DNA of 64,000 bases, from assembly GCA_949128115.1 (NCBI GenBank), contig OX421963.1, positions 868,001 to 932,000 on the forward strand, written 5' to 3'. The position numbers and the translations under genes are program-made. The DNA is from Anaspis maculata. Lineage: Eukaryota; Arthropoda; Insecta; Coleoptera; Scraptiidae. The notes beneath the pieces are model-generated. The model saw nothing but the letters and a program-made list of their open reading frames with translations, made no database searches and was not told the DNA's origin. Below, in pieces: positions 6,965 to 45,575 of the stretch (its first letter is position 1; each line of letters opens with the position of its first letter).

Positions 6965-9732
6965 CCTGTATCACGGAAATAATCGAAGGTGTCGCCAACA
7001 ATTGTATTCCAGACTCACGCTAACGTAATTGCTCCACTATTTCCACGTAAGTGACGTCATTTTAATCTAGAAAATGATTGACAGGCGAATAATTTTGCTT
7101 CGCTATGTTCACGTTGGTAACGCCACTCTCAGTAACGTCACTCTTACTGACTGCAGATGACTGTACCAAAATCTCACGCTAGAAATTGCGCCAATATCAT
7201 CACGCTAGTGATGTCACTATAGTCGTTGTCAGGCTTTCAACGTCACTTTAGTTGCAGCAAACAAGCAAGTGATTGTTTTTTTTTTAATAATCATTGCTCT
7301 GCGTTTCTCACGCTAGCAGCCTCACTCTCACTGACGAACAATTATGTTACAGATTCGCCCTAACGTGCAAGTGATTGCTTCACTATTTTCAAATTAGTGA
7401 CGTCATTTCAGTCAAAGGAGTGATTGCCGTGCAAAAAATTATCACTCCACTATTTTAACGCCTTTTCAAATATTGAAGTGCAGAAATCTATATTGAATTA
7501 TCACTAGAGGATGCAGTTCACGTCAATTATCTCACTCTATTGTTGCCATTCTAGTAAAAAGTGCCGTCGATACGCTAACAATTGTATTTCAGATTAAGAC
7601 CAACGTGCAAGTGATTGCTACACGATTCTAACGCTAGTAGAGCCCACTATGCTCAATTGATGTGCGAATGATCATACCAAAGTCTCACGCTAGCGTGCAA
7701 TCATACCACTGTTCTCACGCTGGTGACGTTACAATTGCTATTATAGTCAAAGGTGTCGCTGACACGCTAACACAGACGCGCTAACGTGCGAGTGATTGCT
7801 TCACTATTCTCACGCCAGTGACGTGATTGTTGCTCCGCTATTTTCACGTGTATGACAACAGAAAAATGATAGCTCCGCTATTTTGACGTCACACTAATTA
7901 TTGCGCGAACATCTGGTATGATCATCTCGCTATTCTCACGCTAGTTACATCAGCTATCACGCTTAGGGTCTCAATGATACGATAACAATTCTATAGACTC
8001 ACGCTTACATGCAAAGTATTGCTTCACTGTTGCTAAACCAGCAACGTAATTTCATGCAAGCAAGTAATTGTGACGCGAATGATTATTGCTTCAGTATTCT
8101 CACGTTAGCAACGTCACTCTGATTTTCGAATCGTCTCACGCGAAAATATTCCCCTCAATATCCTCCAAGACGTTACTGCGGTCAAAAGTGTCATTGTCAT
8201 GCGAATAAAGTCTCACGCTGACGTGCAAATGATGCTACACTATTCTCACTTCAGTGACGAGACGCGAGAGTGATCGACTTTATCAGTCTCACGCTAGTCT
8301 GCTAATGATCACGACACTTTTCTCACGCTAATGACGTCGCTTTTCTCAAGAGAGTGACCAACGTGCGAATAATTATTCCTCGGTCAATTTCACGCCAGAA
8401 ACGTGATTCTAATTGACTTTCGAATAAAAAGAGTGAAGTCTCACGCTCACGTGCAATAATTACGCCAATATGTTTATGATAATGTCGTCACTGGACTCAG
8501 AAAGGTTGCTGACACGCTGATAATTATATTTCGGACCAACGATGACCTGTGAGTAATTGTCTCACTATTATTGTGTCCGGGACGTCATTATAGTCAAGGG
8601 AGTGATTGAGTTGTGAATGATGCTTGCTTCACTATTATGACGCTACTCACGTCACTCTCATTGTCATGCGAATAGTTATAGCAAAATTTCACGCTGATGA
8701 CGTCATCCAACGGTGTCGCTGACACGCTGGTCATTATATTTCAGACCACCGATGACCTGTGACGAATTGCTCCACTATTCTCACGCCAGGAACGTTGATA
8801 TAATCAAGAGAGTGATTGATTTGTGAATTATTTTTGCTTCTCTATTATCGTGCAACTCACGTCACTTTTATTGTTATATGAATAGTTATAGCAAAGTCTC
8901 ACGGTAATGACGTCAGTCAACGGTATCGCTGACACGCTGATAATCATATTTCAGACGTCATTACACCCAACATAGTGACTGACGTGCTGATGATTATTTC
9001 TACACGGTTTACACGCCAGTAACATTGACGTACAAATAATTACAGCAACGTATCACGCTAATGTGTTATTGGGGAGCTTGCCAACGTAACTTCCCACCTA
9101 AAAATTGGCGAGTTTGTTATCTGCAATTCATTAGTTACAGGGGAATTTTTATGTTCTACGTCGCGTTACGTCGTACGTTCAATGAAATCGCAAACTCCTT
9201 TTTATTCACGCCAAGATTCTCACGCTCGTGACAACGCTACACATAAAGCTGTCGTTGATGGGCAGTGATTATATTTTATACTCACGGCAACGTGCAAGCG
9301 ATTGTTTCACTATTCTCACGCCAGTGACGCTTTTTAGACAAGCAGAGTTTATGACGTGCGTTCTATTACTGTTTTGCTGTTCTCATGCTAGCAATGTATT
9401 TCTTATTCACGTGTGAATAATTATTGGCAAATATGATGTAAAACTCACGCCAACGTGCAAATGTTGCCTCACTATTCTCAAGTAAGTGACGACACTCAAG
9501 TCAAGGAAATAACTGACGTGTCAATAATAGCTTTGCGATCTCCAAGCTAGCAACGTCACTCCAATTGCGAGCGAATAATAATACAAAAGTCTCACGCTGA
9601 TGTGTAGATACTCACGCTACTATAACCGCGCTTGTGTCGTTACTGAGCTCAAAAGTATAGTTGACACGCTGAAATTTATATCATTCCAGATCCACGTCAC
9701 TATGCAAGGAACTGTTTCACTTATTTCACGCC
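6965..9732 (+). repeat. TCACGC/TGACGTCA degenerate satellite, left arm
   Basis: It consists of diverged units of roughly 65-75 bp built on TCACGCTAGTGACGTCACT and GACACGCTAACAATTG words. TGACGTCA, the palindromic cAMP-response-element core, recurs, for example near 7050 and 7398. The same satellite continues at 13325-13640 and appears on the opposite strand at 14762-17490. Confidence 0.85.
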
Positions 9733-10322: not shown

Positions 10323-12321
10323 TTTTTTTTTCAATTTACATTTACAATGTTGCATCAACCATTGAAGGTTATTAGCAACTCACTTGAGTTACTGAAGTGT
10401 CACGTACGGGTCAGATGGAGTCAAATATTTATTTGATTTTTTTTCAGAAAAGTTAGAACTTTATCATATTTCTTAGGGTCTGTAAGAGTTGTTGGAGACT
10501 CTGCAACACCATTATAGTGATCTATGATTATGGTGGTTTGGGCAATGGTAGAGGATATGGTCGATTGACAGATGGATGTCGCAGGTTGGACACTTTGGAC
10601 GAACTTGCCTTGACAACAAAAAAGAGTGGGTAAGTCTGGAGTATCCCAGTCTCAACCTATTGAGTTCAGCTTGTTCGTTTCTTTGTACAGATAAGTGGTT
10701 TTGTTTTTTGAAGATAGTGGTCTTTTCGGGTCCAACACTGCTGCCAGATACGAGATATACTGACCTTCACATACGTTTTGAGGTCAGCTGGGGGATTAAT
10801 TCGACAAATTGGTAGATTGTTTGATGATGTTGCCTTTTTGGCCAGATCGTCCGCTCTTTCATTACCATTTATTCCAATGCGTGATGGTGTATACATAAAA
10901 ACTGTTTTGTCAACCCTATCGGACAGTTCGTCTTTTATTGTTTGTATAAGGGGATCTCGTGGGTAGAGATGATTCAAGGCCTTTGGTGAGCTTAGAGAGT
11001 CTGAACAAATAATAAAATTTCTTTCAGGGTGTGTTCTTGTGTAAATTAACGCTTGAAGTATGGCATAGAGCTCAGCTGCATAGTAGTATTGTAGTTTTGG
11101 AGGCAAAAGAATAGTTTAGATGTTGGGGTGATCAGAGCAGATGCCACTTTATCGTCAATTTTGGAGCCATCGGTGAAAATCAGTCTGTGATTTGGAAAAC
11201 CATCGACTATTTTGAGGAAATGTGTCTTGATAAGAGTGTGATTCGTTTCAGCTTTGTCAAACCTTGTAGGATCAAAGATCAATTTGATCCTAGATTGTTT
11301 TCGTGGCGGGACCGAAAAGTTTTGCCAAGGAAAAGTTTCAGGGATGGTGAAGTTGATTTCTCGTTGGATGCAAGCGATTCTTTCATGAACTGGTGGAGCT
11401 ACACTCCCGTTCAAAGTGATTTCAGGCCTAGTTGGGAACACTAAGTCACGACTCAGGCTTTGTGGATTTGAGAGGGTGTTTATAGCGGAGTTCAGGGTGG
11501 ATCGTTTGTTGCGGAGTTCGAAAGAGTTCGTTGCGTTCACCAACGCTAGGAGACTTTCCACCGGAATGGTACAAAACGCTCCTGTTGCTATTCTGATAGC
11601 CATTGATTGTATAGCACTGATGGATCTATCTGAGATAGGACTTTTTGGCTGTCATGAAGGCAATTGCTTCATAGTCAAGTTTTGATCTTATAAGACTGCG
11701 ATAGATCTTCAACAATGTTTTGGTGTCTGCTCCCCAGGTGTGGTTAGACGAAATTCTCATTAAATTTAAACCTTGGAGGCATGATGTCTTGTGTTGTGAT
11801 AAGTGTTGTTTCCAAGATAGCTTCTGATCAAATGCAATGCCTAGAAATTTAGTTGATTCAGGGAATTTTAAGCTTCTGCTTTTCAGTCGAAGGAGAAGGG
11901 AGCTTATTTGTTTGATCCTACTGAAGTTGATGCTGGTTGTTTTTTGCGTAGAAAATTTAAAACCTGGTGTTGAGATTTTTTCCTCTGAGGTATATCACCA
12001 AATCATTTGCGGATAGACAACAGCGTACTGGAGCTTCAATGCGTTATAGTTTGACATTAATTGCTATCAGGAATAGGATCACACTCAAGACTGAGCCCTG
12101 GGGAACACCGTTTTGCAGTTTCTCACTGTTGGAACTTGAAAAAACTGCTGTTGATTTTGACTTTGAATGACCTGTTACGTAGAAAATTTTGGATGAACGC
12201 CAAAATATTACCCTTTATGTTCCATTCTATCAATTTTTTGATCACATGGCGAGTCCAAGTCATGTCATAGGCTTTCTCGACGTCAAAGAAGATGGCCAAT
12301 AGGTTTTGTTTGGTTGCAAAA
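10323..12321 (-). mobile_element. 5'-truncated I/Jockey-like LINE insertion
   Basis: The element is read right to left and ends in a nine-base poly(A), seen as T at 10323-10331. The flanks both read GCTGCG(T), at 10317-10322 and 12322-12328, a 6-7 bp target-site duplication. Comparison with unit 4 (about 24595-24615) shows the uninterrupted site. The 5' end lies inside the reverse transcriptase, so the endonuclease and ORF1 are missing, as is usual for LINE insertions made by target-primed reverse transcription. Confidence 0.85.
10500..12321 (-). pseudogene. LINE pol remnant: reverse transcriptase, RNase H, C-terminal zinc motif
   Basis: In order from 12321 downward, the first segment is the palm with FFDVEKAYDMTW. 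Then, after a frame change, comes NGVPQGSVLSVILF. Next is SANDLVIY, where families normally have YADD, so one catalytic aspartate position is altered. The RNase H follows: FTDGSKIDD (about 11150-11175), then AAELYAIL, CSDSLSS and GINGNERADDLAK in the next frame, which supply the four acidic residues. Last is a C-terminal LRLGYSRLTHSFLL...CPTC...H..C segment near 10520-10680. At least three frameshifts and several stops show it is dead. RNase H-bearing non-LTR elements of the I/Loa/R1-like groups have this order. The host target was secreted-peptide unit 1. Confidence 0.85.
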
Positions 12322-12880
12322 GCTGCGTAGTTTTGGAATAACTTTCTGTAGTGGTTGCGCAGACCTAGGGAGGCCTGCATATGCTCCAGCTTTTGCTAAA
12401 ATCCACAAATGGCCATGATTTTCTCTGATTCGAGCCAAATTCGAATTCTTTGGCTTCATAATATTCAGAGCATTCTTCCCAAAACTTCATCCTAACGTCT
12501 ATGGAATTGGAACATTCAATCAAAAGTTCTTTAGGACTATTGGATTGGTGTCCAAAAATTGTGTGAGGGATTCAATGAAAAAACAGGAAGGAAATACCGC
12601 GTCTCAAACTGGATATTTTGTATTGAATGATACGTCTGGGGGCCGTAACCGAAATAATTTTGAGCTTGATTTATGTTATCTTTCAAATTTGAGAATTAAA
12701 TTTCCAATAAATGCACCTGGAATCATAAAGAATCACACGATTGAGGCTTTGTTCAAAGCAGAAGTCGCAATCAGAAAAGTTGCAACATAACGATTTATAT
12801 TGTTCGAATATAATGACAAATGAAACCATAATAGTGCTCGAACAATAGCCAATAAATCCAATGAAGCTCCTCAGATAGGG

Positions 12881-12937
12881 TATGAAATAAGTGCAAGTAT
12901 CCACGTCGATGACCAGTTATAGACTCCAGCTCCAGCC
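12881..12937 (+). promoter_or_regulatory. Core promoter and 5' UTR of secreted-peptide gene 1
   Basis: TATGAAAT at 12881-12888 stands where copy 4 has a perfect TATAAAAG. A CCAGTTA initiator-like word lies about 30 bp downstream (12913-12919). A 20-odd base leader runs to the ATG. The segment is almost identical in copies 2 and 3. A CCAAT word lies just upstream (12849-12853). Confidence 0.55.
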
Positions 12938-13134
12938 ATGAAGTTATACATCGTTATGGTCCTGATCTTGGCCACAGTCGCCGCTGTAAGTTGATCATCA
13001 ACACTATCATAATCATTTTCAGCTCAAACTCAGCTGCAATTTCTGTCGCTTTTTAACATGTTCTCAACTGACAGGTGTTGGCCGACCAATATAAACTACA
13101 ACCGTCTCCTAGTTTCATCCAAGCCATGGAATGA
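12938..13134 (+). CDS. Small secreted peptide gene, copy 1 (2 exons)
   Basis: Exon 1 is 12938-12985, the intron 12986-13074 (89 bp, GTAAGT...ACAG, phase 0), and exon 2 13075-13134 ending TGA. The 35-residue product begins MKLYIVMVLILATVAA, a hydrophobic signal sequence. Exon 2 opens with VLA, which fits the -3/-1 rule for signal peptidase. A 16-residue mature peptide beginning DQYKLQ and containing PSPSFIQAM would be released. It has no cysteine, so it should be linear. Evidence that it is a gene comes from four paralogues in this window conserving start, splice sites, reading frame and promoter. It lies in opposite orientation to the other three, downstream of a LINE insertion. Function is unknown: secreted effector, venom-type or antimicrobial peptides have this architecture, but no family is recognised. 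Confidence 0.82.
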
Positions 13135-13324
13135 GATAGTACTTACCGATGATACCTCGAGTCTCCACGATGAAATAATAATTCCATCCAAGTACTTATA
13201 TTTTTGTTTGTTCAACTTATATGAATATAAGAAAATACCTCTGCCCATCTACCACGCAAAGCTCGGATATTGCCATTTATTTTGTTTCGTGCTATTAGTC
13301 ACGCAGCTATTGTTAAGCTAGTGA

Positions 13325-13640
13325 TAACACGACTACAGTCCAAAGTGTGGAAGACACATTTTATAAGTGTGTCTCATATACTCACGGCATAATGTGTTTC
13401 ACTATTCTCACGCCAGAGACGTCGTCTTAGACGAAGGAGTGAATCACATGCAAGTCATTATTGCTTCACTATTCTAACGCCATCAGTAAAATTCCTCGGA
13501 TTTACATGCGAATATTCACGCAAAATGAAAATACTCACGTTACTCTGCAGATAATCAGACCACTATTCTCACGTCATTGACGTCACTATAATCAAAGGTA
13601 TCGACTATCGTTTACACATTAACGGTTATATTTTGATCTT
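13325..13640 (+). repeat. TCACGC/TGACGTCA satellite, continuation of left arm
   Basis: It has the same units and orientation as 6965-9732 (ATTCTCACGCCAG, GACGTCACTATAATC). The 3.6 kb between the two blocks is unit 1 plus the gypsy fragment, so the satellite was probably one block before that sequence arrived. Confidence 0.75.
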
Positions 13641-14761
13641 AAGCTTATATGCGCAGTTTTCTTTCTGATAAATTTCATCAGCAAAATGGGTTTCCACGCA
13701 ATGTCAAAACTGCTGTGAGTGGTGACAATTTGGAAAATATCGATGCTTGATTAGCTGGCGGAATATGAGGAAAACTCTCACGGTGTTTCTTTCGAAAAAT
13801 CAATTGTTGGTAGATTTGCAATAGATAAACTTTGAACTCCAGTTGTACGGGGATCATAAATCACTGGAAAAAATTAAAGCTCGACCACGGTGGCATTTCA
13901 CCAGCGCGGTTAACATTTTCGCGACACTACTGCGTGTGGTGCCCACCCTTTGTTTCGCTCAACCAAACAGCCATATAAATATCGAAAAACTACGACCAAT
14001 AAAACAGCAAACGCGCACTGAACGGGTAATTTACCGCCACAACAATATTCTCTCTTCCATCAACCGCGATCAAACTCGCCATTATTACCTCCCTGTGGTA
14101 CGACCGCGTGTATATGTGCCTCTGCCAACCTAACCTTTGACCGGCCGTCTAAAAACAATGCCTTCTGTTGTATGTGCGCCGTGTGCGCGATAATTAAAAT
14201 GATTTTATAGTTTTTGATCGAAATTCCGATCCCGCGAACGAGACACAATGGCCGTTCATAAATTCCCAATAATTCGCCGGCGCAGTGGTAGTGCGGTGTA
14301 GGTTTCGCCTTTTTTTTTCTGCATCGGGCATAGAGGAAGCAGAAAATGAACGGGAGAGACGGAGAGAGAGAAAAAAGATGACCTCAGGCACGGGTCAGTT
14401 GCGTGAGAGACTTCTCGGAGGCCGTAAATAGTGTGTACGTACACCGGCTATGTACTCGTAAATAGGGCGGATATCGCATTATGGAGGATAAGTATGGAAT
14501 ACCAGTAGCGGTCCGTTTGGAATTTCACGAGTGCGACGTGTTAATTTCGTTTGCGTATCTGATGCTCGTCGAAGGGTTAAGTATTTGGTATGATGAACCA
14601 CACGGCAAATATTCGATCAAATTTCCCAGAAACTGTATTCTAACAACCTTTTTTTTGTTATTGCGTTGCTACTGCTACTTTGAAGTATTGTATTTTAGCA
14701 AAATAGGTATAAATTTTTTTGGTACTGCCCAACTGGAATGGCTGACAACTGAACAATAATG
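13641..14761. other. Unique core between inverted satellite arms
   Basis: The 1.1 kb is GC- and CpG-richer than its surroundings at 13880-14450. Open frames of 60-96 codons on both strands show no recognisable domain. Neither strand has a convincing splice-linked coding series. Confidence 0.5.
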
Positions 14762-17490
14762 AAACGTTATTTTTCCGTTAGCGTGAGTCTTCTGAGTCGT
14801 ATTTATCCGCACGTTATTCGCAAGTCAATCACCTTTTTGACTGGAATGAGTGAGAATAAGGGTCACTGGCGTTGGAATAGTAATAGTCATTATTTGGACG
14901 TTGATCGCTCTCTTAACTACGTGAGAATAGCAAAGCAATATCAATCATTTCTCTCTTGACTAAAATGACGTCACTTGTTTGAGAATAGTGCAGCATCACT
15001 TGAACGTTAGCGTGAGAATTCATATCATTATTCGTACAATGACACTTCTGGCTATTTTGACCTTGTCACCATAGCGTGATAATAGTGGCATACTATATTC
15101 AGGTAAGCTTGAAACTTTGGTATCATCATCAGCATGTCAATCAAAGTGACGTTGCTAGCGTGAGCATGACACAACAATAACAGTTCGCACGTCAGTCAAT
15201 CTTCTGACTAAAATAACGTCAGTGGCGTGAGAATAGGTCGCTAGCTTGAAAATAGCGACGCAATATTTATTCGCACTTGAACCATCCCCTCGACTGGAAT
15301 GAATGGGAATACGGGTCACTGGCGTGGGAATAGTGACGCAATCATTATTCAGACGTTGATCACTCTCTTGACTACGTGAGAGTAGCGGAACAATATTTAT
15401 TTCTCTTCCGACCAAAATGACGTTACTTGCTTGAGAATAGTGAAGCATCGATTAAACGTTAGCGTGAGAATTGATATAGCTATTCATACAATGACACTTT
15501 TCGAACGAAATGACGTCTTTGACGTGAGAATAGTGTTCACTGGCACTATAGCGTGAGTATGTGATATTTATTGTTAACGTGTAGAGAAAACCGTTGACTC
15601 TAGCAACGTGAGTATTTGCACCTTAGCTTGAAACTTTGGTGTGATCATCGGCACGTCAATAAAGTGACGTTGCTAGCATGAGAATATCGAAACAATAACT
15701 ATTCTCATGGTAATCAGTTCACGTATAAACAGTAAACACGTCACTGAAGTAAGAATAGTAACGCAATAGTCAGCGTGAACCTAAATTATTATTCAATCAT
15801 ATTGTGTCGATGTCAGTATTGGAACTTTTTAATAATAATCACGTCACCAACATGAGAATAGCTGCGTGATCACAAAAATGCTACCGTGAGACTTTGAAAT
15901 AATTATTCGCAGGTTTAGAAGAGTGACGTTGCTGTAGTTAAAAAAGCTGAGCAGTAAATATTCGCACGATGTTCACCACCCTCTTGTGACTATTTGATGT
16001 CACTGACATGAGAGCAGTGGAGCAATGATAGCTGAGACAATGAAATCACTTTCACTGCTACATGAATAAGGCTGTCAAAATATCACTTCTCACACCACTA
16101 GCGTGAGAACAGTTGAGAGATTGTATGCGCACTGCGTGAGATTGTGGTATGAGTAATCACATCTCAATCAGAATGTTTTTACCAGCGTAAGGATAGTGAA
16201 GCAATAATTGTTCGTACGTCGACCACTCTCTTGATTACGTGAGAATAGCGGAACATTATCTATTATTTCTCTCTTCGACTAAAAAGACGTCAATTGCGTG
16301 AGAATAGTTCACCATCACTTGCACATTGCGTGAGGCTTTAATATTATTGTTCGCGTGTTGACGGCACATTTGACTATCGTTGCGTCACTGGCGTAAGAAT
16401 CGTAACACGATTGAATACGGACTATCTTGAAACTTTGGTATGATTATCCACATGTCAATCATAGTGAGTTGCTAGCGTGAGAATAGCAGAATGATAATTC
16501 GCACGTCAATCAGTCTTCTGACTCAGATAAGGACAGTGACGTGAGAATAATAGTAGGGCGATCATTTATACATTAGTCTGAATGTGTATTGAAATTTTGT
16601 CGTTATCGCGTCACTCAGTGTCACGTCAATGTCACAAGTGACACGTTTTGACAATAATGACGCGTCTAGCGTGAGCATAAGTAGCCAGCTTGAAAAAGCG
16701 AAGCAATAGTTATTCGCACGTCAATCACTCTTTTGACTGAGATAAGTGAGAATGAGGGTCACTGGCGTTGGAACAGTTGCAGTCATTATTTGGACGTTGA
16801 TCGCTATCTTGACTACGTGAGAATAGCGAAGCAATATTTATTGTTTTGCTCTTGACTAAAATGACGTCATTTGTTCAAGAATAGTGCAGCATCACTTGAA
16901 CGTTAGCGTGAGAATTAATATAATTATTTTTACAACGACACTTTTGGCTATTTTGACCTTGTCACTAGCGTGATAATAGTGACATTACTATATTCAGGCA
17001 AGCTTGAAACTTTGGTATAGCGACGTTGCTAGCGTGAGCATAGCACAACAATAATTGTTCGGACGTCAGTCACTCTCCTGACTAAAATAGCGTCAGTAGC
17101 GTGAGAATAGGTCGCTAGCTTGAAAATAGCGACGGAATAATTATTCGCACTTGAACGATCCCCTCGACTGAAATAAATGATAATACGGGTCACTGGCGTG
17201 AGAATAGTGACGCAATCATTATTTAGACGTTGATCAGTGATCCCCTCCCTTGACTACGTGAGAATAACGGAACAATATTCATTTCTTTCTCGACCAAAAT
17301 GACGCCACTTGCTTGAGAATAGTGTAGCATCAATCCAACGTTTGCGGGAGAATTATTATAACTATTCATACAATGTCACTTTCGGCTATTATGACCTTCT
17401 CACCGGCGTAGGAATAATTAAGGCAAGCTTGAAACTATGGTGTGATTATCCGCATGTCGATTATGGTAACGTTGCTAGCGTGAGATAGCA
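14762..17490 (-). repeat. TCACGC/TGACGTCA satellite, inverted right arm
   Basis: On the given strand the units read GCGTGAGAATAGTG...ATGACGTCACT, the reverse complement of 6965-9732. A higher-order duplication is visible: a TTATTTGGACGTTGATCGCT word near 14892 recurs near 16788, and TCATTATTCAGACGTTGATC near 15337 recurs, slightly diverged, near 17215, both about 1.9 kb apart. Confidence 0.85.
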
Positions 17491-18189
17491 GCTGAAATTT
17501 TTGAAAATATCATTTTAGACAATTGAGGATTTACAAAACACTTTTTGTGATGAAAAAAAAAGGGAAAATGGAAACAATCCGGATTCAATGATGTAGTTGC
17601 CAAAATCATTGAGAATGTAGTGGTGAGCTTTGAGACTCTTACCTGAGAGGCTAATGCGCTTTTTCCTTGGAATTTTGAGAATCAATCATGTTGAGAGAAT
17701 CATGTTCACCATCAATCTAAGATCCTTCTGCTAGCAGTTCCACACCAGAGCAGTCACACGTATACGGTTCTCCTTTGCAATGAACGGTCGTATACAGAAT
17801 TTATTCTGTCACACGATAGAATATTCCAGGGTGGCAGGGTTCACAAATTTTCATATCAGGTGAGTCAGTGCAGATTCAATTCTTCTGCATTCTACGAAAT
17901 ATTCCTGTGCCCTACAATGTCGCCTTTGAAACAGTCACATCCAAACAAAAAAGACCACCGGAAACAATATGGTCATATTTTCGTCATCTACCTGTGGTAT
18001 CATTCCAAAAATGTCGCAGTACCTACTGCCTACCAGTCTGGATCACTTGAATAAAGTCAGTTCCACTACAAGCAGCAGTATGCAAACGAAAATAATGGTA
18101 GCAATCCACTCAACCACACTCAACTCTTGTCTTGCCTGATCCGAATCGATTCGAATCCTAATTTTAATCAAGAGTTATTCGGAGACCAT
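17491..18189. other. Unassigned sequence
   Basis: About 700 bp without recognised repeats or genes. Overlapping 60-64 codon frames at 17860-18054 have no known motif. Confidence 0.4.
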
Positions 18190-18632
18190 CTTGAGCTTAA
18201 TCTGGCGTCATCCCATTCTAGAATAGAATTCCATTCCGTCTGTCGACCTGCCGTGAGGCGAATAAAAAAGCTAACAATTGAATTGCTCAGCTTCTTGGCT
18301 CCAAAACAGTCGCTGTTGAAGGCAGCAACTCAAAATAAATACTTGATATGCTGACTTCAACTTTCTGCCAATCCATTCAAAGGATGTTTTTTTGTCATTT
18401 TCATGACTAACTGTAAGCTTTGTTCTGGAGGTTTCAGTTTTCAGAAGTCAGGGTGTTGAAGTTGATGGTAACACTTAATGTGTTTCCATTGAGGCAAACA
18501 AAATAAATGACGATATCATTTATTTCGAACTTTGCGTGATCGAGTATCCAGGCAGAGAATATTCATTTATCTATATACTTATTCATTTTCTTTTATTCAT
18601 ATAAATAGAACAATGAAAAAATATATAGAATA

Positions 18633-18638
18633 TTTATT
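18633..18638 (-). terminator. Poly(A) signal of secreted-peptide gene 2
   Basis: AATAAA on the minus strand, about 30 bases after the stop codon. Copies 1 and 3 have AATAAT at the corresponding place and copy 4 has AATAAA (23760-23765). Confidence 0.45.
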
Positions 18639-18666
18639 TTATCGAGGAAACTCAAAGCATCATCGG

Positions 18667-18876
18667 TTAGAGCAGTTGTCTTAGCATGGCTTCGATGAAA
18701 CTAGGAGGCTCTTGTAGTTTATCTTGGTCGGCCAACACCTGTCAATTGAGAACATGTTAAAAAGCGACAGAAATTGCAACTGAGTTTGAGCTGTAAAATG
18801 ATTATAATAGTGTTGATGATCAACTTACAGCGGCAACTGTGGCGAAGAACAGGACCATAACGATGTATAACTTCAT
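18667..18876 (-). CDS. Small secreted peptide gene, copy 2 (2 exons)
   Basis: Exon 1 is 18829-18876, the intron 18739-18828 (90 bp, GTAAGT...ACAG, phase 0), and exon 2 18667-18738 ending TAA. The product is 39 residues. The signal sequence differs from copy 1 only at two positions (LFF for LIL). After VLA the mature peptide starts DQDKLQ and keeps P.SFI.AM, but it is more acidic in the middle and ends with a four-residue extension (RQLL after AML). The extension arises because a substitution and a one-base length change remove the stop used in copies 1 and 3. The result is a more amphipathic C-terminus. Neighbour copy 3 is in the same orientation 1.9 kb away. Secreted and linear; function unknown. 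Confidence 0.82.
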
Positions 18877-18933
18877 GGCTGGAGCTGGAGTCTATAACTG
18901 GTCATCAACGTGGATACTTGCACTTATTTCATA
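18877..18933 (-). promoter_or_regulatory. Core promoter of secreted-peptide gene 2
   Basis: TATGAAAT on the minus strand at 18926-18933, an initiator-like CCAGTTA about 30 bases downstream and a short leader. It is nearly identical to the promoter of copy 1. Confidence 0.5.
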
Positions 18934-19340
18934 CCCCATCTGGGGAGTTTCATTGGATTTATTGGCTATTGTTCGAGCACCATTATGGTTTCATTTGCCA
19001 TTACTTTCGGACAATATAAATCGTAATGTTGCAACTTTTCTGATTGCAACTTCTGCTTCGAACAAAGCCTCAATCGTGTGATTCTTTATGATTCCAGGTG
19101 CATTTATCGGAAATCTAATTTTCAAATTTGAAAGATAACATGAATCAAGTTCAAAATTATCTCGGTTACGGCTTCCAGACGTATCATTCAATACAAAATA
19201 TCCAGTATGAGAAGCGGTGTTTCCTTCCTGTTTGATTCATCGATCAATCCCTTGTGAAATTTCAGAAAACAAATTCAATAATCCTAAAGAACATTCGATC
19301 GAATGTTCCATGGACGTTAGAATGAAGCTTCGAATCGCCA

Positions 19341-20110
19341 AGAATCCGCCAAATCGTTCCTGCAGTCCGTCCTACCGACCACGTCCCGTTCCCATTTCAT
19401 AAATAATCACGTCATGTCGTTGTCTTTCCCACATTTAAGGGTTTGCTTCACTCAAAATTATTATTTCACATTCCGTTTTTCTATCCGTTGTATCTAGTGT
19501 TCGTACAACAACAGTTCTTTTGCCATGTGAACTGCGTGTGAATCATATTTCTAGGTACCGGCCGTAGAGGAGTCCACGATAGCTGGCGGAGCAGCCGAGC
19601 TCTTCACTTCCTCGCCGAACTGCTAGACTTGGGGGAGAACTTCTTGAAGATGACGCCCACACTTTATATCAGTACCCGCCGCATAGAGCAACGCTGCGGC
19701 AATCCCCAGGTCAGTATGCAGTGGCCAAGACACCGTCAGGCTGGGCTTCTTCTGCGGTCGGCCTAGGAATTCACCCACCGCAGTACTCGTAGTGTTCGTC
19801 CCCGATTCCAGATGAGTAATACGTTTCGATCCTGGTTTATCATTACATTTTATTTATTTACACAACACGTTCTTTCAAAATTTCATTATGTTCCTACACT
19901 GCTCGCCACGTCATCTAATAGATTTGTTGAATTGTTCAAATGGCGTTCACCTTTCCTAGCCCAACTTCCAACTCATTCTTCTCCAAATCACAACCCCCTG
20001 CTCTACGCTTCTAGCCGGCAACGAGTCCAGGGCTGGTACCTGGGTGGTGGTCATAAGCGGCCACCCTTCAGCCCTTCTTCCATAAAGACAACCACTCCAC
20101 CACTACCCTC
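19341..20110. other. Inter-unit spacer with a GC-rich patch
   Basis: Positions 19550-19800 and 20010-20110 are distinctly GC-rich. On the minus strand 19620-19810 is open for about 60 codons (ending LQEVLPQV before a stop) and looks like a decayed coding fragment, perhaps of a retroelement. No family can be named. Confidence 0.35.
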
Positions 20111-20571
20111 AGGATTGGAAAGGTTACACATTCCAGAATGGAATTCCACTCCCATCGGTCGCCTTGCTGTGAGTCGAATAGTATAAGCTAACCATTGGAT
20201 TGCTCAGCTGCTTAGCTCCAGAACAGTCGCTGTTGGAGGCAGCAATTGAAAAAAATCCTGATAGCCTGATGAAATTCCTGTCAATCCATTCGAAGGATGA
20301 TTTTTTGTCATTTTCACGACCAACTGTAAGCTCTGTTTTGAAGGTTTCAGTTTTCAAGATACAGAATGTTAAAGTTGATGGTCACACTTAGTGTGTTTCC
20401 ATTGAAGCAAACAAAATAAATGACAATATCATTCATTTCGAACTTTGCGTCGTTGAGTATCTAGGCAGAGGTATTTTCTTTTATTCATATCAAGTAAAGC
20501 AAACGAAAAAATAAGTGGATGGAATTATTATTTCATCGTGAAAACTCGTGGTATCATCGGTAAGCACTATC

Positions 20572-20768
20572 TCATTCCATGGCTTGGATGAAACTAGGAG
20601 ACGGTTTTAGTTCATATTGGTCGGCCAGCACCTGTCAATTGAGAACATGTTGAAAAGCGACAGAACTTGCAACTGAGTTTGAGCTGAAAATGATCATAAT
20701 AGTGTTGATAATCAACTCACAGCGGCGACCGTGGCCAAGATCAGGATCATAACGATGTATAACTTCAT
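20572..20768 (-). CDS. Small secreted peptide gene, copy 3 (2 exons)
   Basis: Exon 1 is 20721-20768, the intron 20632-20720 (89 bp, GTGAGT...ACAG, phase 0), and exon 2 20572-20631 ending TGA. The 35-residue product is closest to copy 1. The signal sequence has one conservative change (MIL for MVL). The mature peptide starts DQYELK instead of DQYKLQ and keeps PSPSFIQAM. Promoter and splice sites are intact and the frame is undamaged, so it is probably functional. Two of the few differences from copy 1 fall within six residues of the mature peptide's N-terminus. Secreted; function unknown. Confidence 0.82.
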
Positions 20769-20825
20769 GGCTGGAGCTGGAGTCTATAACTGGTCATCGA
20801 CGTGGATACTTGCACTTATTTCATA
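20769..20825 (-). promoter_or_regulatory. Core promoter of secreted-peptide gene 3
   Basis: TATGAAAT on the minus strand at 20818-20825 with a CCAGTTA initiator-like word downstream, as in copies 1 and 2. Confidence 0.5.
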
Positions 20826-21119
20826 CCCCATCTGAGGAGCTTTATTGGATTTATTGGCTATTGTTCGAGCACTATTATGGTTTTATTTGTCATTATATTC
20901 GAACAATATAAATCGTAATGTTGCAACTTTTCTGATTGCGACTTCTGCTTTGAACAAAGCCTCAATCGTGTGATTCTTTATGATTCCAGGTGCATTTATC
21001 GGAAATCTAATTCTCAAATTTGAAAGATAACATGAATCAAGTTCAAAATTATTTCGGTCACGGCTCCAATACAAAATATCCAGTATGAGAAGCGGTATTT
21101 CCGTCCAGTTTAATCCATT

Positions 21120-21545
21120 GATCAATCCTTCACAAAATTTTGGAATACCAATCCAATAATCCTGAAGGACATCTGATTTAACGTTCCATAGACTTTAGAA
21201 TGAAATTTTGGGAAAAAGTTGTGAATATTATTATGGGGCCATAAAATTTGAATTTGGTTCGACCCAGAGAAAGTCATGGCCATTTGTGGATTTCAGCAAA
21301 AGCTGGAGCATATACAGTCTTTCCTAGGTATTTCCTTCCTGTTATATTCATTGATGAAAAATGTATTGCAAAATTTGAGAATACCAATCCAATAATCCTT
21401 GAGACTACTCTGATTGAAAGTTCCATAGACGTTAGAATGAAGTTTCGAGAAAATGCTGTGAATATTATGAAGCCAAAGAATTCGAATTCGGCTTGACCCA
21501 GAGAAAGTCATGACCATTCGTGAATTGCTCACGCCACACAAGCTG
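21120..21545 (-). repeat. Internal tandem duplication in unit 3 flank
   Basis: Sequence around CAATAATCC...TTCCATAGAC...TTAGAATGAA and GACCCAGAGAAAGTCATG occurs twice, at about 21145-21275 and 21385-21515. Unit 1 (12400-12545) and unit 4 (24380-24520) carry it once. Confidence 0.7.
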
Positions 21546-21880
21546 AAGCATGATTATGCAAGCTTTCCTAGGTCTGTGCAACTACTACAGAAAGTTATTC
21601 CAAAATTACGCTCTACCCAGCGAGACTACAATGCACCTGACCCACCTGCTGCGGAAGGAGACCAAGTGGAATAGAATAATAGAATAGAATAAAAAAGAAT
21701 TTTTTGTGCAGGAGGCGATAATGGCCATTATACACGTCAAAGAACTGATAGGTACCCACCAGAAAAATATTGTGTCGTCCACATTATACTTGTTCATGTG
21801 TAGATCCTAACAGATCGCTTCTACTGCCTTGGCAAACTGTTCAAATTTCGATCGTCATTCCACAATATTTCATGAATTTT

Positions 21881-22189
21881 ATCATAGGAAAAAATGGCAA
21901 AGTTTCAATATTACGATTTATATTACCCAATTATACCTAATGGCAACTTAAATCGAACACTAAACAGTGTTCGAACAATAGCCAGTATACTTAATCGAAA
22001 AGAATTATCATTCCAGATTGTAAAGAGAAAAGGAGGAAGAGTAAGAGTTTCAAATGGGAGAAAGTTCTCTTCGTACTAAGAAGAGGAAGCATGATATTTC
22101 TTCTGAGAGATGGTGGAGCAAGTCGTCTATTAAATCGACTTCAGACGGCTAAAGGGTGGACTACTGCTGCTTTGCCGGAAACTATCGCC
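21881..22189. other. Unassigned sequence
   Basis: About 300 bp, AT-rich, leading into the GAGCCCC minisatellite. A 61-codon frame (21894-22079) ends in a basic stretch (KRKGGRVRVSNGRK) but has no recognised family. Confidence 0.35.
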
Positions 22190-23500
22190 AGCAGGATCAC
22201 TTTTCATAGCTTTCAGCCCTCCAGTAAGGCCCCTTTTGCAGTCCTGTGTTACCAAGACCTCTATTGGGGCCCCTTATTCTGTCTTCAATCTAATTTGGAG
22301 CCTTGCTGAGCCTCCTTGCATTTTCCGTGACATCCGAAGTAACAAGCAGCGTTGTGCCGTCATGTCATGTTCGGAGCCCTATCGCGCCCCCATCGTGTCT
22401 TCTAGTGTTGTTGAAACCCCGTTGAACCCTCTTTTGTTTCTTATGGCAGTCGACGTGAGTACCAGTCAGCTCCATTTTGCGTTATTTTGTTATACAGAGC
22501 TCCATTGGGCTCTCTTGTGTTTTCAGTACCGTTGGAAGTTCTGTCGAGTCTTCTTGCATCAGACCCTCTTGTGCCTTCAAGTTTAATTTGGAGCCCTAAT
22601 GAGCTCCCTTATTTGCTTCATGGCTTCCAGAATTCCACTGAGCCCCATTTTTCCATCTTGTGCCATCCAGGCCTTATTGGACCACCTTATTGTGTTTTGA
22701 ATGTGATTTGAAGCTCTGCTGAGCCCCTTTGCATTTTCCGTTACTTTCAGAGCATGGTAATCATCCTTGTGCCCTCATGTCACTTGGAGTTCTTTCAGGC
22801 CCCTTTGAGTTATCAATTGCAGTTGGAGCCCCAGTGAGTCCCCTCGAGTTTTTTCGTACTTTTCCGATTTCCAGAGAGTCATCTTATGTCTTCCTCTTCT
22901 TGCATTGCTATCAGCTCTAGTGTAAGTTCCTTGTGCCTTTGTGTGATATACGGAACCCCATCGGACTTTCTTGTGTCCGCGAATGTAGTTTGAAGCCCTA
23001 GTTAGCCTCTTCATGTTTTTTCATGCCTCCCAAAATTCCAGTGAGCCCCCTTTTGCCTTTTTGTGTTATCCAGATCCTCATCGGGTCCCCTTGTTTCTTC
23101 AACGTCTTTCGAAGCCCCGGAGCCCTGCTGAACTTTCTCACATTTTTCCGTAGCTTTCGGAGCATTTGGTGAGCCCCTCATGCCTTCATGTGATATCAAG
23201 AGCCCTATAGGGCCCCTTGTTAACCCACTTATGTTTTTATTGGCTTTCAGAGCAACAGTAACTCTTTTGCCTTCATTTATTATATGTATGAAGTTCCATT
23301 GGGCCCCCTTGTATCTCCAATATCGTTTGAAACTCTGCTGAGCCCCCTTGCATTTTTGGGTGATTTTCGGGGCTCCGTCGCACCCCCTTGTATTTGCTTA
23401 TGGTATTATGAACCCTTTGTTGAGCTGCTTTCCTTGTCTCTTCATGTATTCAAGCCCTCTTACGTTCCGAAGCCTTACGGGTGATTTTTTCTTGCAGTTC
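22190..23500 (+). repeat. Degenerate GAGCCCC/CCCCTTGTG minisatellite
   Basis: Diverged units of about 55-65 bp combine GAGCCCYRTTGGGCCCCCTT with TTGTGCCTTCATGTCAT. A larger unit is visible from CTCTGCTGAGCCCC-like words at about 22300, 22713 and 23333. Long open frames on both strands (up to 116 codons) are repeat artefacts. Confidence 0.75.
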
Positions 23501-23502
23501 CT

Positions 23503-23534
23503 CTTGCGACCTCGCTTGCGACCTCGCTTGCGAC
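23503..23534 (+). repeat. Short tandem repeat, 12 bp unit
   Basis: The unit CTTGCGACCTCG is repeated about 2.7 times. Confidence 0.8.
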
Positions 23535-23798
23535 CAATTGTCTGTGGAACGCATTGCCCTAGCGCCCTCCAAAGGGCAGAGGTGCGTTATAGCTTCAAGG
23601 TAAAAAGATAAAATTGACGTCGGTGAACTTCGAAAGAGGCCTCTGCAGTTGCACAACGTTGTTTTGTGTTTATTCGTTCTTAGAACGTGTGAACTGCGGG
23701 TGGGATATGCGTGGTCAGATCAAACAATCAAAACAAAACAAAAATAAGTAGATAGAATTTTTATTTTTATGTGAAAACTTCAAGTATCATCGGCAATA

Positions 23799-23998
23799 CT
23801 AGCGTCCTCCATTTAGGATAAAATCAGGGAGCGGCTCTTCAGTTGGGTCGGCCAACACCTGTTGATTGGGAATTTGATGTTAAAAAGCGACAGAAATTGC
23901 AACTGAGTTCAAGTCGTAAATGATTATAATAGTGTTGATGATCAACTTACAGCGAAAACTGTGGCCAAGATCACGACCATAACGATGTATAACTTCAT
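23799..23998 (-). CDS. Small secreted peptide gene, copy 4 (2 exons, divergent)
   Basis: Exon 1 is 23951-23998, the intron 23859-23950 (92 bp, GTAAGT...ACAG, phase 0), and exon 2 23799-23858 ending TAG. The 35-residue product keeps the signal sequence with two changes (VVI for VLI, VFA for VAA) and the VLA cleavage site. The mature peptide is strongly altered: it starts DPTEEP, keeps only the P.FI core, and ends NGGR. A terminal glycine-arginine is a possible C-terminal amidation signal after trimming (inference). The promoter has a perfect TATA box, unlike the other copies. Upstream, beyond 24770, lies the heat-shock-element-like array. Open frame, splice sites and poly(A) signal are intact. 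Confidence 0.75.
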
Positions 23999-24011
23999 AG
24001 TTGGAGCTGGA

Positions 24012-24055
24012 GTCTGGAACTGTTAACCAACGTGGATTTTTGCACTTCTTTTATA
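24012..24055 (-). promoter_or_regulatory. TATA-box promoter of secreted-peptide gene 4
   Basis: TATAAAAG on the minus strand at 24048-24055. The initiator region AACAGTTCC lies about 30 bases downstream. It is the canonical form of the TATGAAAT seen in copies 1-3. Confidence 0.65.
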
Positions 24056-24770
24056 CCCCATCGGAGCAGTTTTACTGGATTTATTGCGTATTGTTCAAGC
24101 ACTATTAGGCTTTTATTTGCTATTTTATTCGAACGATACAAATCGTCATGTTGCAACTTTTCCGATTACGACTTCTGCCTTGAATAAAGCCCCAGTTGTG
24201 TAATTTTCCATGATGTGCGTTTATCAGAAATCTAATTCAAGTTTGGGAGATAAGATGAATCAAGTTTAAAATTATCCCGGTAACGGTTCCCCTGACGTAT
24301 CATTCGATACAAAATGTCTAGTATGAGGAACGGTATTACCTTCCTGTTATATTCATTGATGAAAAATCCATTGGAAAGTTTTAAAATACCTATTCAATGA
24401 TCTTTGAGGAGAATCTGATTGGAAGTTCCATAGACGTTAGGATGAAGTTTCGACAAAAATGTTCTGGATATTATGAAGCCAAAGAATTCGAATTTGGCTC
24501 GACCCAGAGGAAGTCATGGCCATTTGTTGATTTCAGCAGGAGCTGTGGCATTTGCAGGCATTCATAGGTTTGCGCAACAACTACAGAAAGTTATTCCAAA
24601 ACTACGCAGCGAGGCTATGACGAGTAGAATATAATTTTTTTGTGCAAAAGGTGATAATGGCCATTATGCACGTCAAAAAACTAATATTACCCACCAGGGA
24701 AATATTGTATGGTTCACATTCTACTGCCTCGCAAATTGTTCAAATTTCGATCGTTATTCCACACTAGCTT

Positions 24771-26945
24771 TCGCCGGGGCCGTTCTGGAATGTCCCACAG
24801 TGATATGGAATGATCCGGGATGTTTTTGAGTGTTCCAGACTATTCATGACAATCCCAGAACGTTCTGGAATGTTATAGAATGATCTGGAATGTTCCAGGA
24901 TGTTTCCGAACGTTCCAGACTACTTTAGATCATTCTAGAACATAATGGAACATTCTGGATTGTTTTCGAACGTTCCAGACATATCCCAAACATTCCAGAA
25001 CATACGGGAACATTCTGGAATGTTGTGGAATGATCTTGAATACTCTCGAATATTCTGTACTTATTCTGTACTGCACCTCTACTAATGGGTGGCTCCACAC
25101 CAAAAAGGCTTCGAAGGCACAATGTTGCAGGAACTTCAAAGGGTGTTCTGGAATGTTCCACAGTGATCTGGAATGATCCGGGATATTTTCGGGAGTTCCA
25201 GACTATTCCTCACAATTCCAGAACATTCTGGAATGTTATAGAATGATCTCGAATGTTCCACAATGATTTGGAATGTTCCAGGATGTTTCCGAACGTTCCA
25301 GACTATTTTTGATTATTCTAGAACATAATGGAACATTCTGGAATGTTTTCGAACGTTCCAGACTACTCCCGAACATACCGGAACATTCTGGAATGTTGTG
25401 AAACGATCACGAATGCTTTACAATGATCTGGAATGTTCCGGGATGTTTTTGAACGTTCTAGATGATCCCGACCATTTTAGAACATACCAAAACATTTTGG
25501 ACTGTAATGATTTTGAATGCTCCACAATGATCTGGAATATTTCGGGATGTCTCCGAACATTCCAGACTATTCCCGACCATTCCAGAACATACCGGAACAT
25601 TATGGAATGTTGTAGAATGATCTAGAATGTTCCGCAATGATCTGGAATGTTCCGGGATGTTTTCGAACGTTCCAGACTATTCTCGAACATTCTAGAACGT
25701 ACCGGAACATTCTGGAATCTGAAATGTTGTGAAACGATCTCGAATGTAGGTACTACAATTCATTGGATTGTTTCGGAATGTTTCAGAACGTTCCAGACCA
25801 TTCCCGACAATTCCAGAACATTATGGGATGTTATAGAATAATCTCGAATGTTCCACAATGATCTGGAATGTTCCAGGATGTTTTCGATCGTTCCAGACTA
25901 TTTTCGATCATTCTAGAACATAATCGAACATTCTGGGATGTTTTCGAACGTTCCAGACTACTCCCGAACATACCGGAACATTCTGGAATGTTGTGAAATG
26001 ATCACGAATGCTTTACAATGATCTGGAATGTTCCGGGATGTTTTTGAACGTTCTAGATGATCCCGACCATTTTAGAACATACCAAAACATTTTGGACTGT
26101 TATGGAATAATTTTGAATGCTCCACAATGATCTGGAATATTTCGGGATGTTTAGGAACTTTCCAGACTATTCCCGACCATTCCAGAACATACCTGAACAT
26201 TCTGGAATGTTGTAGAATGATCTAGAATGTTCCGGGATGTTTTCAAACGTTCCAGACTGTTCACGAACATTCTAGAACGTACCGGAACATTCTGGAATCT
26301 GAAATGTTGTGGAACGATCTCGAATGTAGGTACCACAATGGATTGGAATGTTTCGGAATGTTCCAGAACGTTCCAGACTATTCTCAACAATTCCAAGACA
26401 TTCTGGAATGTTATAGAATGATCTCGAATGTTCCACAATGATCTGGAATGTTCCAGGATGTTTTCGAACGTTCCAGACTATTTTTGATCATTCTAGAACA
26501 TATTGGATATCCATAATGGTATTCTAGAACATACCTGAACATTTTGGAATGTTGTAGAATGATCTAGAATGTTCCGCAATGATCTGGAATGTTCCGGGAT
26601 GTTTCCGAACGTTCCAAACTATTCTTGAACATTCTAGAACGTACCGGAACATTCTGGAATCTGAAATGTTGTGGAACGATCTCGAATGTAGGTACCACAA
26701 TGGATTGGAATGTTTCGGAATGTTCCAAAACGTTCCAGACTATTTCCAACAATTCCAGAACATTCAGGAATGTTATAGAATGATCTCGAATGTTCCACAA
26801 TGATCTGGAATGTTCCAGGATGTTTCCGAACGTTCCAGACTATTTTCGATCATTCTAGAACATAATGGAACATTCTGAAATGTTTCCGAACGTTCCAGAC
26901 TACTCCCGAACATACCCGAACATTCTGGAATGTTGTGAAATGATC
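24771..26945. repeat. Heat-shock-element-like minisatellite
   Basis: This is a 2.2 kb array whose basic word is GAACATTCTGGAATGTTCC: alternating GAA and TTC blocks at 5-base spacing, the arrangement bound by heat-shock factor trimers. Units are diverged and near-palindromic. Longer units recur: a CTGAAATGTTGTG...GAATGTAGGTAC segment lies at about 25717, 26299 and 26660, and a CCATTTTAGAACATACCAAA segment at 25473 and 26067. Frames of 60-95 codons on both strands (rich in W-N-V-F-R) are artefacts. Confidence 0.85.
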
Positions 26946-27659
26946 ACGGTCACTTCAGCTGGATTCAATCTTTGAAAGTGGCATTCAAATAGCCAAGAAC
27001 TATTACAGCACACAACGGGAGAGTCGTTACCCACTCTACAGTTCGATGATCAAAATACAAGTGGATTTGTATTGGTCATGCGCTTCTGATGTGTTGAGGT
27101 TGAGGCACTAACTTTGTGGGGGCTTATCGTTTCGACAAATTGGTCTATTCCAATTTTGAGTTGTTTTTATTGAAACGTTACTGGTATGGGTTACGTTACG
27201 GTACTGAAAAAATTTCTAATAAAAAAAAGTCAACTTTGAAGGGCTGTATCTTCGTTATTAAGCCGAGCTTCGCAAAATGGCATATAGATTTCCGTCATAT
27301 TTTGTCAGGATCTACCAACAGTTGATGTTTTCGCTATCATCGCTGGAACAGCTTGTATAATGTATCTGCTTTGAATTCATCAATTTTCCAGCAATTCCTT
27401 ATACTTTCATATTTTACAAATATATTGATGATTTCTCAAGCAACGTCAATTCATTGCCACTTACTTGAAGTGATCGCTGATGCTTCAATATCTCACTTCG
27501 CACAGAGACTTCAGGAGTACAAGTATATGCAGTCCTTACCTGAAACAAAAAAAAAAGACATGAGTCAAAATATTCATTTCTGAGATTGGACGATACATTT
27601 GATACTATTACAGTTAGTGGTGTTTCACAATTACAATTACAATTTAGATATTACACTCG
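26946..27659. other. Unassigned sequence
   Basis: About 700 bp with no repeat pairing seen here. Frames at 27116-27325 and 27353-27583 have no recognisable domain. Confidence 0.4.
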
Positions 27660-44700: not shown

Positions 44701-45575
44701 TAAAGACGACCTCACAAACTAAAGCCTGGTTTGCGCCACTAGAAAATTTGACGATACCGAAGCAATAACGCAAATGATCGCTAGTGTGATTTTCACGACC
44801 CATTGTAAGCTTGACTTTAGCAAAACTTCAAACATTCCGGGCTAACTCGAGTACGCAAGGTTAGAGACGATCCTGCAAAGCTGAAGCCTGGTTCACACTT
44901 GTAGACAACGTTGAATATACTAGAGCATGTCAATATACTCATCACTAGTGTAAGTTCTACGACCTAAAACAAACTTGGCTTCAGCAGACTAGACAGCTTT
45001 CAATATTTCGGGCTAGCTCGAAGTAACTAGGTTTGAAGACGACCTTACTTACTAAAGCCTGGTTTGCGCTGATAGAAAAGTTGACAATACTGAAGCAATT
45101 TCGCTAATGATCGCTAGTGTAATTTCCACGATTCATTGCAAGCTTAGCTTTAGCAAAACTTGAATATTCTGGGCTAACTCGAGTAAGCAAGGTTTAGAGA
45201 TGATCCTGCAAAACTGAAGCCTGGTTTACACTTGTAGACATTGTTGATTATACTAGAGCATGTCGTTATACTTATCACTAGTGTAAGCTTCACGACCTAA
45301 AACAAACTTGGCTTTAGCAGAGTAGACAGCCCTCAATATTTTGTGCCAGCTCGAAGTAACTAGATTTGAAAACGACCTTACTAACTAAAGCCTGGTTTGC
45401 ACTACTAGACTTGACGATACTAAAGCAATGTCGCTAATGATCGCTAGTGTGTGATTTTCACGACCCATTGTAAGCTTGGCTTTAGCAGAATTCCAAATAA
45501 TTCAGGCTAACTCCAGTAAGCAAGGTTGAGAGACGATCCTGCAAAACTAAAGCTTGGTTAACACTGCAAAAATTT
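41745..45575 (+). repeat. Dimeric satellite, ~165 bp monomers in ~335 bp pairs
   Basis: Monomers contain AAAGCCTGGTTTACACT, TCACTAGTGTGAG, GCAAGCTTGGCTTTAGCAGA and CTCGAAGTAACTAGG words. From about 43200 two monomer types alternate. The ACACTTGTAGACAACGTTGA type occurs at about 43533, 43870, 44216, 44552, 44885 and 45217, and the GCGCTA...GACGATACTGAAGC type lies between. The left part (41745-43200) is less ordered. Confidence 0.88.

Follow-up and report, generated by a model that had tools for sequence, protein, structure and literature searches.

A single-locus family of four minigenes for short, cysteine-free, putatively secreted peptides in the beetle Anaspis maculata

Introduction

Short-form Bomanins of Drosophila carry a CxxC motif. 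The part of PMC10059942 drawn on here describes Bomanins and Daisho as taxonomically restricted secreted peptides, the Bomanins including short forms; their genes are activated by Toll, and ten Bom genes are lost in one deletion, 55C. IbinA and IbinB, described from Sophophora flies in the available text of PMC12882233, have precursors of 41-42 amino acids (aa), with an 18-residue signal and a mature peptide of 23-24 residues. In the ant Tetramorium bicarinatum, venom peptide genes show tandem local duplication and a conserved two- or three-exon structure, their promoters being the least conserved part (PMC10800049, in part). The KQY/KHI cassette effectors of the pea aphid, which are salivary, combine a highly conserved signal-coding region with a divergent remainder of dozens of miniature exons, and their loci are mostly scattered (PMC7495047, in part). 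Here, we analyse a 64,000-nucleotide stretch of chromosome 3 of Anaspis maculata (the window), in which four two-exon genes, g1 to g4, lie within 12938-23998. We consider it reasonably likely, judging from the sequence, that these four tandem minigenes make up a single-locus, lineage-restricted family and encode secreted peptides that are short, acidic and free of cysteine; the peptides would probably serve as effectors in haemolymph, gut or reproductive tract.

How does this locus compare with the systems above? By size and clustering, its nearest counterparts would be the non-classical immune peptides of Drosophila. The likeness to Bomanins and Daisho is one of description, as taxonomically restricted secreted peptides, and that to Ibin is one of size, the two falling in nearly the same size class. 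Unlike the Bomanins, the beetle peptides contain no cysteine and hence no CxxC motif, and a nuclear factor kappa B (NF-kappaB)-like site, which might be expected of Toll-activated genes, occurs in one of the four beetle promoters. The locus resembles the ant venom genes in tandem duplication and in the conservation of a simple exon structure, but the conservation of its promoter is no lower than that of the gene, and the host is a scraptiid beetle. As in the aphid effectors, a conserved signal-coding region precedes a divergent remainder; however, the beetle genes have two exons and sit at one locus, and each carries a single second exon homologous to the others, whereas the aphid signal is shared by non-homologous series of miniature exons.

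Results

The window belongs to chromosome 3 of assembly icAnaMacu3.1, a chromosome of 100.7 Mb according to PMC11252652. The cytochrome oxidase subunit I (COI) of the mitochondrial contig shows 96% identity with an entry labelled Cucujiformia and with one from Anaspis sp. (Scraptiidae), among the 120 best of 7997 scored candidates; this identifies the source as a beetle, and a hemipteran or gall-wasp host was rejected. Gene g1 starts on the plus strand at 12938, and g2, g3 and g4 start on the minus strand at 18876, 20768 and 23998, respectively. All four are intact: each has an ATG, a 48-nucleotide (nt) exon 1, a GT(A/G)AGT donor, a phase-0 intron of 89-92 bp, a CAG acceptor and, in exon 2, an open frame of 19 or 23 codons, which gives 35, 39, 35 and 35 codons for g1 to g4 (g1, g2 and g4 were spliced by script; the structure of g3 was read off the alignment). 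In g1, exon 1 (12938..12985, MKLYIVMVLILATVAA) is followed by an 89-bp phase-0 intron, GTAAGT...CAG (12986..13074), and by exon 2 with its stop (13075..13134), in which VLA precedes DQYKLQPSPSFIQAME; the product is MKLYIVMVLILATVAAVLADQYKLQPSPSFIQAME (35 aa). On the minus strand, g2 consists of exon 1 (18829..18876, MKLYIVMVLFFATVAA), a 90-bp intron (18739..18828) and exon 2 with its stop (18667..18738, VLA then DQDKLQEPPSFIEAMLRQLL), where the stop of g1 and g3 is lost and the tail extends into the former 3′ untranslated region (3′-UTR), so that the product is MKLYIVMVLFFATVAAVLADQDKLQEPPSFIEAMLRQLL (39 aa). Likewise on the minus strand, g3 comprises exon 1 (20721..20768, MKLYIVMILILATVAA), an 89-bp intron with a GTGAGT donor (20632..20720) and exon 2 with its stop (20572..20631, VLA then DQYELKPSPSFIQAME), yielding MKLYIVMILILATVAAVLADQYELKPSPSFIQAME (35 aa), and g4 comprises exon 1 (23951..23998, MKLYIVMVVILATVFA), a 92-bp intron (23859..23950) and exon 2 with its stop (23799..23858, VLA then DPTEEPLPDFILNGGR), which carries a one-codon deletion and a C-terminal frameshift and yields MKLYIVMVVILATVFAVLADPTEEPLPDFILNGGR (35 aa). 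At most about 50 nt past the stop, g2 and g4 have AATAAA; the variant AATAAT stands at the matching place in g1 and g3.

Upstream, the genes share a core promoter with a TATA-like element at -57, TATAAA in g4 (24050..24055, minus strand, motif scan) and TATGAA in g1-g3 (in g1 12881..12886, plus strand, read from sequence and alignment), and a CAGT initiator-like site at -24 in all four (in g1 12914..12917, plus strand, motif scan). An earlier note on this DNA had described four two-exon genes with intact frames and splice sites, a common promoter, a near-constant signal exon and a phase-0 intron, and every one of these features is present in all four genes. A GATA site at -262/-255 is also found in the four promoters; we estimate that about one is expected per such stretch, and its sharing reflects common descent. 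The scan used consensus motifs only. An immune-type promoter was rejected, since the NF-kappaB-like site occurs in just one promoter.

The predicted precursors start with MK and a mostly hydrophobic 14-residue stretch that leads to VLA followed by D, which, by the rule of a charged n-region, a hydrophobic core and small residues at -3/-1, is a predicted signal peptide in each of the four. Cleavage by signal peptidase after VLA, as predicted by the same rule, would leave 16 (g1), 20 (g2), 16 (g3) and 16 (g4) residues, in agreement with the 16-20 residues proposed in the earlier note. The mature peptides have net charges of -1, -2, -2 and -3 (counted by hand), the opposite of the net positive charge of the amphipathic, cationic antimicrobial peptides. 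Cysteine is absent from all four peptides, and the dibasic sites KK, KR, RK and RR are absent from all four precursors. This acidic, linear, cysteine-free make-up without dibasic sites argues against both a lytic cationic antimicrobial peptide and a classical neuropeptide precursor. Gene g4 ends in GGR before the stop, and GR is a possible amidation signal, seen in one of the four genes. Within exon 1, all replacements among the genes exchange one hydrophobic residue for another.

The copy number was determined by searching the whole genome (757,842,296 bases, 758 Mb, in 50 contigs), the counts being lower bounds. The duplicated unit around g1 spans 12322..13287 (plus strand; bounded by its outermost matches to the units of g3 and g4), and the others span 18214..19333 (g2, with a 3′ flank in common with g3), 20129..21329 (g3) and 23731..24610 (g4), all on the minus strand. 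Used as a DNA query, the g1 unit matched four places, all inside the window, and the g4 unit matched five, namely the four genes and a gene-less orphan piece of the unit's 5′ flank (21327..21611, minus strand). A local search gave a second, weak scrap of this flank at 21899..21987 on the plus strand (89 bp, 70% identity, E 2.8e-4). We therefore ruled out a dispersed repeat or transposon cargo: this is a single-locus tandem family. A protein search of the genome gave four matches, to exons of g1 and g3 only (E 1e-4 to 0.8); as it missed the known g2 and g4, this search is insensitive and distant members would escape it too. A degenerate exon-1 motif had 30 matches in the genome against 12 for a reversed control. 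Four were exact, these being the four genes, and 26 had one mismatch; 16 of the latter loci were inspected, and a donor at codon 16 was absent from all of them. No further gene was found in 120 kb of flanking DNA (60 kb per side), where the best weak exon match had E 0.18. The earlier note had raised the prospect of other genomic copies full of stops and broken splice sites; only these four copies were found, and all are intact.

No relatives were detected in the collections searched. In Pfam, three of the four peptides had no match, and g2 scored 13.5 bits against PF02950 (Conotoxin), under the 25.1 cut-off and mostly across the signal peptide. In the PDB there was no relative, the best E value being 1.6 for an antibody chain. 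Known folds or families were therefore rejected, as nothing in Pfam or the PDB rose above threshold. A collection of 5.8 billion proteins, queried with stop-to-stop frames of 40-44 aa in a search that needs shared five-residue words, gave two word-sharing candidates, none at E <= 10. The impression that these tiny, cysteine-free secreted peptides belong to no recognisable family is thus borne out. A viral origin was likewise rejected, viral contigs having yielded 113 pattern stretches, not one of them confirmed. Among the matches listed in the literature, which was searched by topic and not by sequence, none dealt with these peptides or with any peptide of Anaspis. Because A. maculata was the sole insect genome searched, the family may sit unannotated in other beetles.

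Do the genes look as if they are kept as coding sequences? In neutral simulations started from g1 with the substitution and indel rates of flanks and introns, the probability of remaining intact was 0.369 for g2, 0.320 for g3 and 0.058 for g4, and the joint probability that all three stay intact was 0.0069. The first seven codons show no variation (0/21 variable sites against 61/259, or 23.6%, in the 5′ flank; p = 0.004), and two of the 36 sites around the start codon vary. Support for coding function is moderate.

We then compared the parts of the gene for the density of changes, with Fisher tests that treat sites as independent. Over the four genes, the share of variable columns is 61/259 for the 5′ flank, 12/60 for the stretch from TATA to ATG, 9/57 for the signal, 17/89 for the intron, 20/43 for the mature part and 30/62 for the 3′-UTR. 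The earlier claim that changes concentrate after the signal-peptidase site holds in so far as the mature part is more variable than the signal (p = 0.0016) and than the intron (p = 0.0017), but it does not survive the removal of g4 (mature 9/48 against signal 6/57, p = 0.27, and against intron 8/89, p = 0.11), and the 3′-UTR is just as divergent as the mature part (p = 1). Conservation of the signal part does not exceed that of the intron (p = 0.66) or the 5′ flank (p = 0.22) either, and among g1-g3 alone the 3′-UTR (24/63) changes faster than the mature part (p = 0.036). The contrast therefore sets the gene's 5′ half apart from its 3′ half rather than a coding signal from a coding mature sequence.

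Changes found in g2 only, among g1-g3, show a sharp step at the boundary between VLA and D: they number 12/266 in the 5′ flank, 0/89 in the intron, 7/48 in the mature part and 17/63 in the 3′-UTR, where the g2 alignment is AT-rich and uncertain. At these 24 mature and 3′-UTR sites g4 sides with g1 and g3 at 16 and with g2 at 6, which places most of the change on the g2 side. For the pair g2 and g3, divergence in the mature exon (9/48) exceeds that of the intron (5/89, p = 0.03) and does not exceed that of the downstream flank (50/339, p = 0.52). The pair g1 and g3 shows fewer changes in the mature part (2/48) than in the flank downstream (17/68, p = 0.004), as under constraint, although downstream comparisons for g1, as for g4, reach the edge of homology. 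In the 5′ flank, g2 and g3 differ at 6/167 sites from -318 to -138 and at 9/79 from -138 to -60; since an ungapped 14-bp deletion in g3 inflates pairwise figures for this flank, multiple-alignment values were used instead.

The earlier note had named a higher ratio of nonsynonymous to synonymous rates (dN/dS) in exon 2 than in exon 1 as a check, which would point to selection aimed at the mature peptide. Among g1-g3 the mature part has no silent change and 2-9 replacements, so that dN/dS is undefined; against g4 there are 3 silent changes and 9-12 replacements, the proportions of changed nonsynonymous (pN, 0.32-0.42) and synonymous sites (pS, 0.40-0.42) are about equal, and dN/dS is close to 1. 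With just 7-9 silent sites this ratio cannot show positive selection. We therefore rejected it as proof of selection, and selection on the mature peptide finds no support in these values or in a 3′-UTR that is equally divergent.

The second exons of all four genes align, as do their 3′-UTRs, and share the core D-x(4,5)-[PE]-x-P-x-F-I, whose D..P.FI is kept in g4 even though this gene departs from the others at 33-51% of its aligned mature sites. The g4 tail, NGGR, stems from a one-codon deletion and a 2-nt deletion that shifts the frame, and the LRQLL tail of g2 from a lost stop codon and a 1-nt insertion. The common core and the alignable 3′-UTRs indicate that all second exons descend from one exon and that nothing was shuffled in. 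The idea that new peptides were shuffled onto one secretion signal is accordingly not supported, the tails differing through frameshift in g4 and stop loss in g2.

Discussion

In the reading we favour, a compact TATA/initiator promoter would drive each minigene, and the transcript, after a single splice, would give a prepeptide of 35-39 residues, whose N-terminal 19 residues would act as a Sec signal peptide cut after VLA. Cleavage would free a linear peptide of 16-20 residues, acidic and without cysteine, presumably active outside the cell. The family would have originated by local duplication, partly inverted, with g1 opposite to g2-g4. The promoter-to-intron half of g1-g3 would have been kept alike, probably by gene conversion, while the half made of exon 2 and the 3′-UTR would have gathered changes, above all in g2 and g4, including the frameshift of g4 and the lost stop of g2. 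With the 5′ half alike and the 3′ half changed, what looks like a constant signal and a variable mature exon is a gradient along the gene and not exon shuffling. Gene conversion is the simplest cause of the homogeneous 5′ half, and a likely one.

As to function, the most likely guess is a short effector of haemolymph, gut surface or reproductive tract, more like Bomanin, Daisho or Ibin, to judge by analogy, than like a membrane-lytic antimicrobial peptide or a venom toxin. Seminal or gut peptides seem about as likely as immune-type ones. The venom or salivary setting that the earlier note brought up finds no support in the host, a false flower beetle whose adults visit flowers and whose larvae scavenge, feeding on fungus and wood, and nothing in the sources consulted suggests venom or gall induction.

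Several points weigh against a family of functional secreted effectors. The low joint probability in the neutral simulation owes its strength mostly to g4 (0.058) and assumes that g1 is the ancestor. Exon 1 as a whole (8/48 variable sites) does not change significantly more slowly than the flank (p = 0.17), and dN/dS gives no clear sign of purifying selection on the mature peptide. The C-terminal tails are altered in g2 and g4, which is compatible with relaxed constraint or early decay as well. The promoter scan found no functional motif, the one NF-kappaB-like consensus not being conserved. Finally, the reading is built on DNA sequence; the raw-data table of the A. maculata genome paper contains PacBio HiFi and Hi-C data and no RNA sequencing (PMC11252652). 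Even so, the four genes are probably real.

An alternative is a relict locus, that is, recently duplicated minigenes that no longer function and drift neutrally, their frames having stayed open owing to short length and recent origin. Such drift would account for the g2-g3 mature exon evolving at the rate of the downstream flank, for the frameshifted tail of g4 and the lost stop of g2, and the joint chance of staying intact, although small (0.007), is not negligible. A relict is nevertheless rather unlikely, as every essential site is intact in the four genes, the first seven codons are invariant and the surroundings of the start nearly so, the exon-1 replacements are all hydrophobic-for-hydrophobic and g4 retains the D..P.FI core despite its divergence. 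Fast-evolving reproductive peptides of the seminal fluid or accessory gland, or pheromone-like signalling peptides, with g4 possibly amidated at its C-terminus, have a similarly low probability. Seminal peptides typically come from small genes for secreted products whose divergence sets in past the signal, and the GR of g4 could be read as an amidation signal; against this stand the lack of dibasic processing sites in all four precursors and the occurrence of the amidation motif in a single gene.

Very improbable, by comparison, is modular shuffling, in which one secretion exon was joined repeatedly to new mature exons that then underwent diversifying selection. The steep rise of divergence at the boundary between VLA and D and the finding that all nine changes among g1-g3 in the mature part are nonsynonymous are what it would lead one to expect, but one exon-2 core and one 3′-UTR are common to the four genes, the 3′-UTR diverges as much as the mature exon, pN about equals pS in the g4 pairs, and no other gene with this exon 1 emerged from the exact motif matches or from the one-mismatch loci inspected. 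That the four genes are instead the 5′ end of a longer, alternatively spliced gene is scarcely credible. Nothing observed speaks for it, whereas the frames close within exon 2 in all four genes, exon 2 of g4 has no GT usable as a donor past its leading GTGTTGG, and AATAAA or AATAAT follows the stop closely.

A bolder extension of the secreted-peptide reading, which we regard as doubtful, is a beetle-specific system in which recombination or conversion breaks at the signal/mature boundary, keeping the promoter-signal cassette uniform and leaving the peptide ends free to change. If this were true, the locus would be a small modular device for new extracellular peptides, their tails renewed by frameshift and by stop loss into the 3′-UTR. 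More probably, this is an orphan family of an ordinary type, made of tandem genes for short secreted peptides restricted to one lineage. Should they be expressed, the locus would supply secreted gene products of very small size and, with its four copies, a clean case of an orphan family diversifying in one place. Genes this small may escape automated annotation. The locus also illustrates how a constant signal exon followed by a variable mature exon can develop where no exons are shuffled and positive selection is unproven.

Surroundings of the cluster

Much of the gap between g1 and g2 is occupied by an interspersed repeat family with internal duplications, built on the word CGTGAGAATAG, which is found at 7800-9320 and 13400-17500 (15 exact copies against 0.02 expected). 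Beyond g4, at 24800-26950, imperfect 10/20-bp palindromic units (GAACATTC.. / GAATGTTC..) form an array that gives GAAnnTTCnnGAA arrays; 23 of the 27 GAAnnTTCnnGAA matches in the window fall there (1.8 expected in the window), and we presume a resemblance to heat-shock elements. A broken element on the minus strand at 10666-11994, with weak RNase H similarity at 10666-11115 (PF00075, E 0.007, below cut-off), is one that we take to be non-LTR (long terminal repeat) retrotransposon-like. A satellite with a 334-bp unit covers 43193-45565 (7 copies, 86% matches).

About 42 kb to the left of the window, at 825100-825600 of chromosome 3, a minus-strand frame with ...CCESGRPLVTDPMTGQSVCSCQYDPARIAALQYPRSVGVYGTPYPSTDQNPYPSIGVESSAFYSPL... 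seems to us to resemble the N-terminal portion of an Iroquois (araucan/caupolican) homeobox protein; if this identity is true, the peptide genes sit near an Iroquois gene. On the same chromosome, the minus strand at 935006-936088 holds an open frame of 361 codons that we assume to be an IS630/mariner-type transposase. The mitochondrial contig (16,310 bases) contains, at about 7219-7971, an array of near-identical repeats translating as PGRGSWAALLVSYISTAHTLVGLQ.

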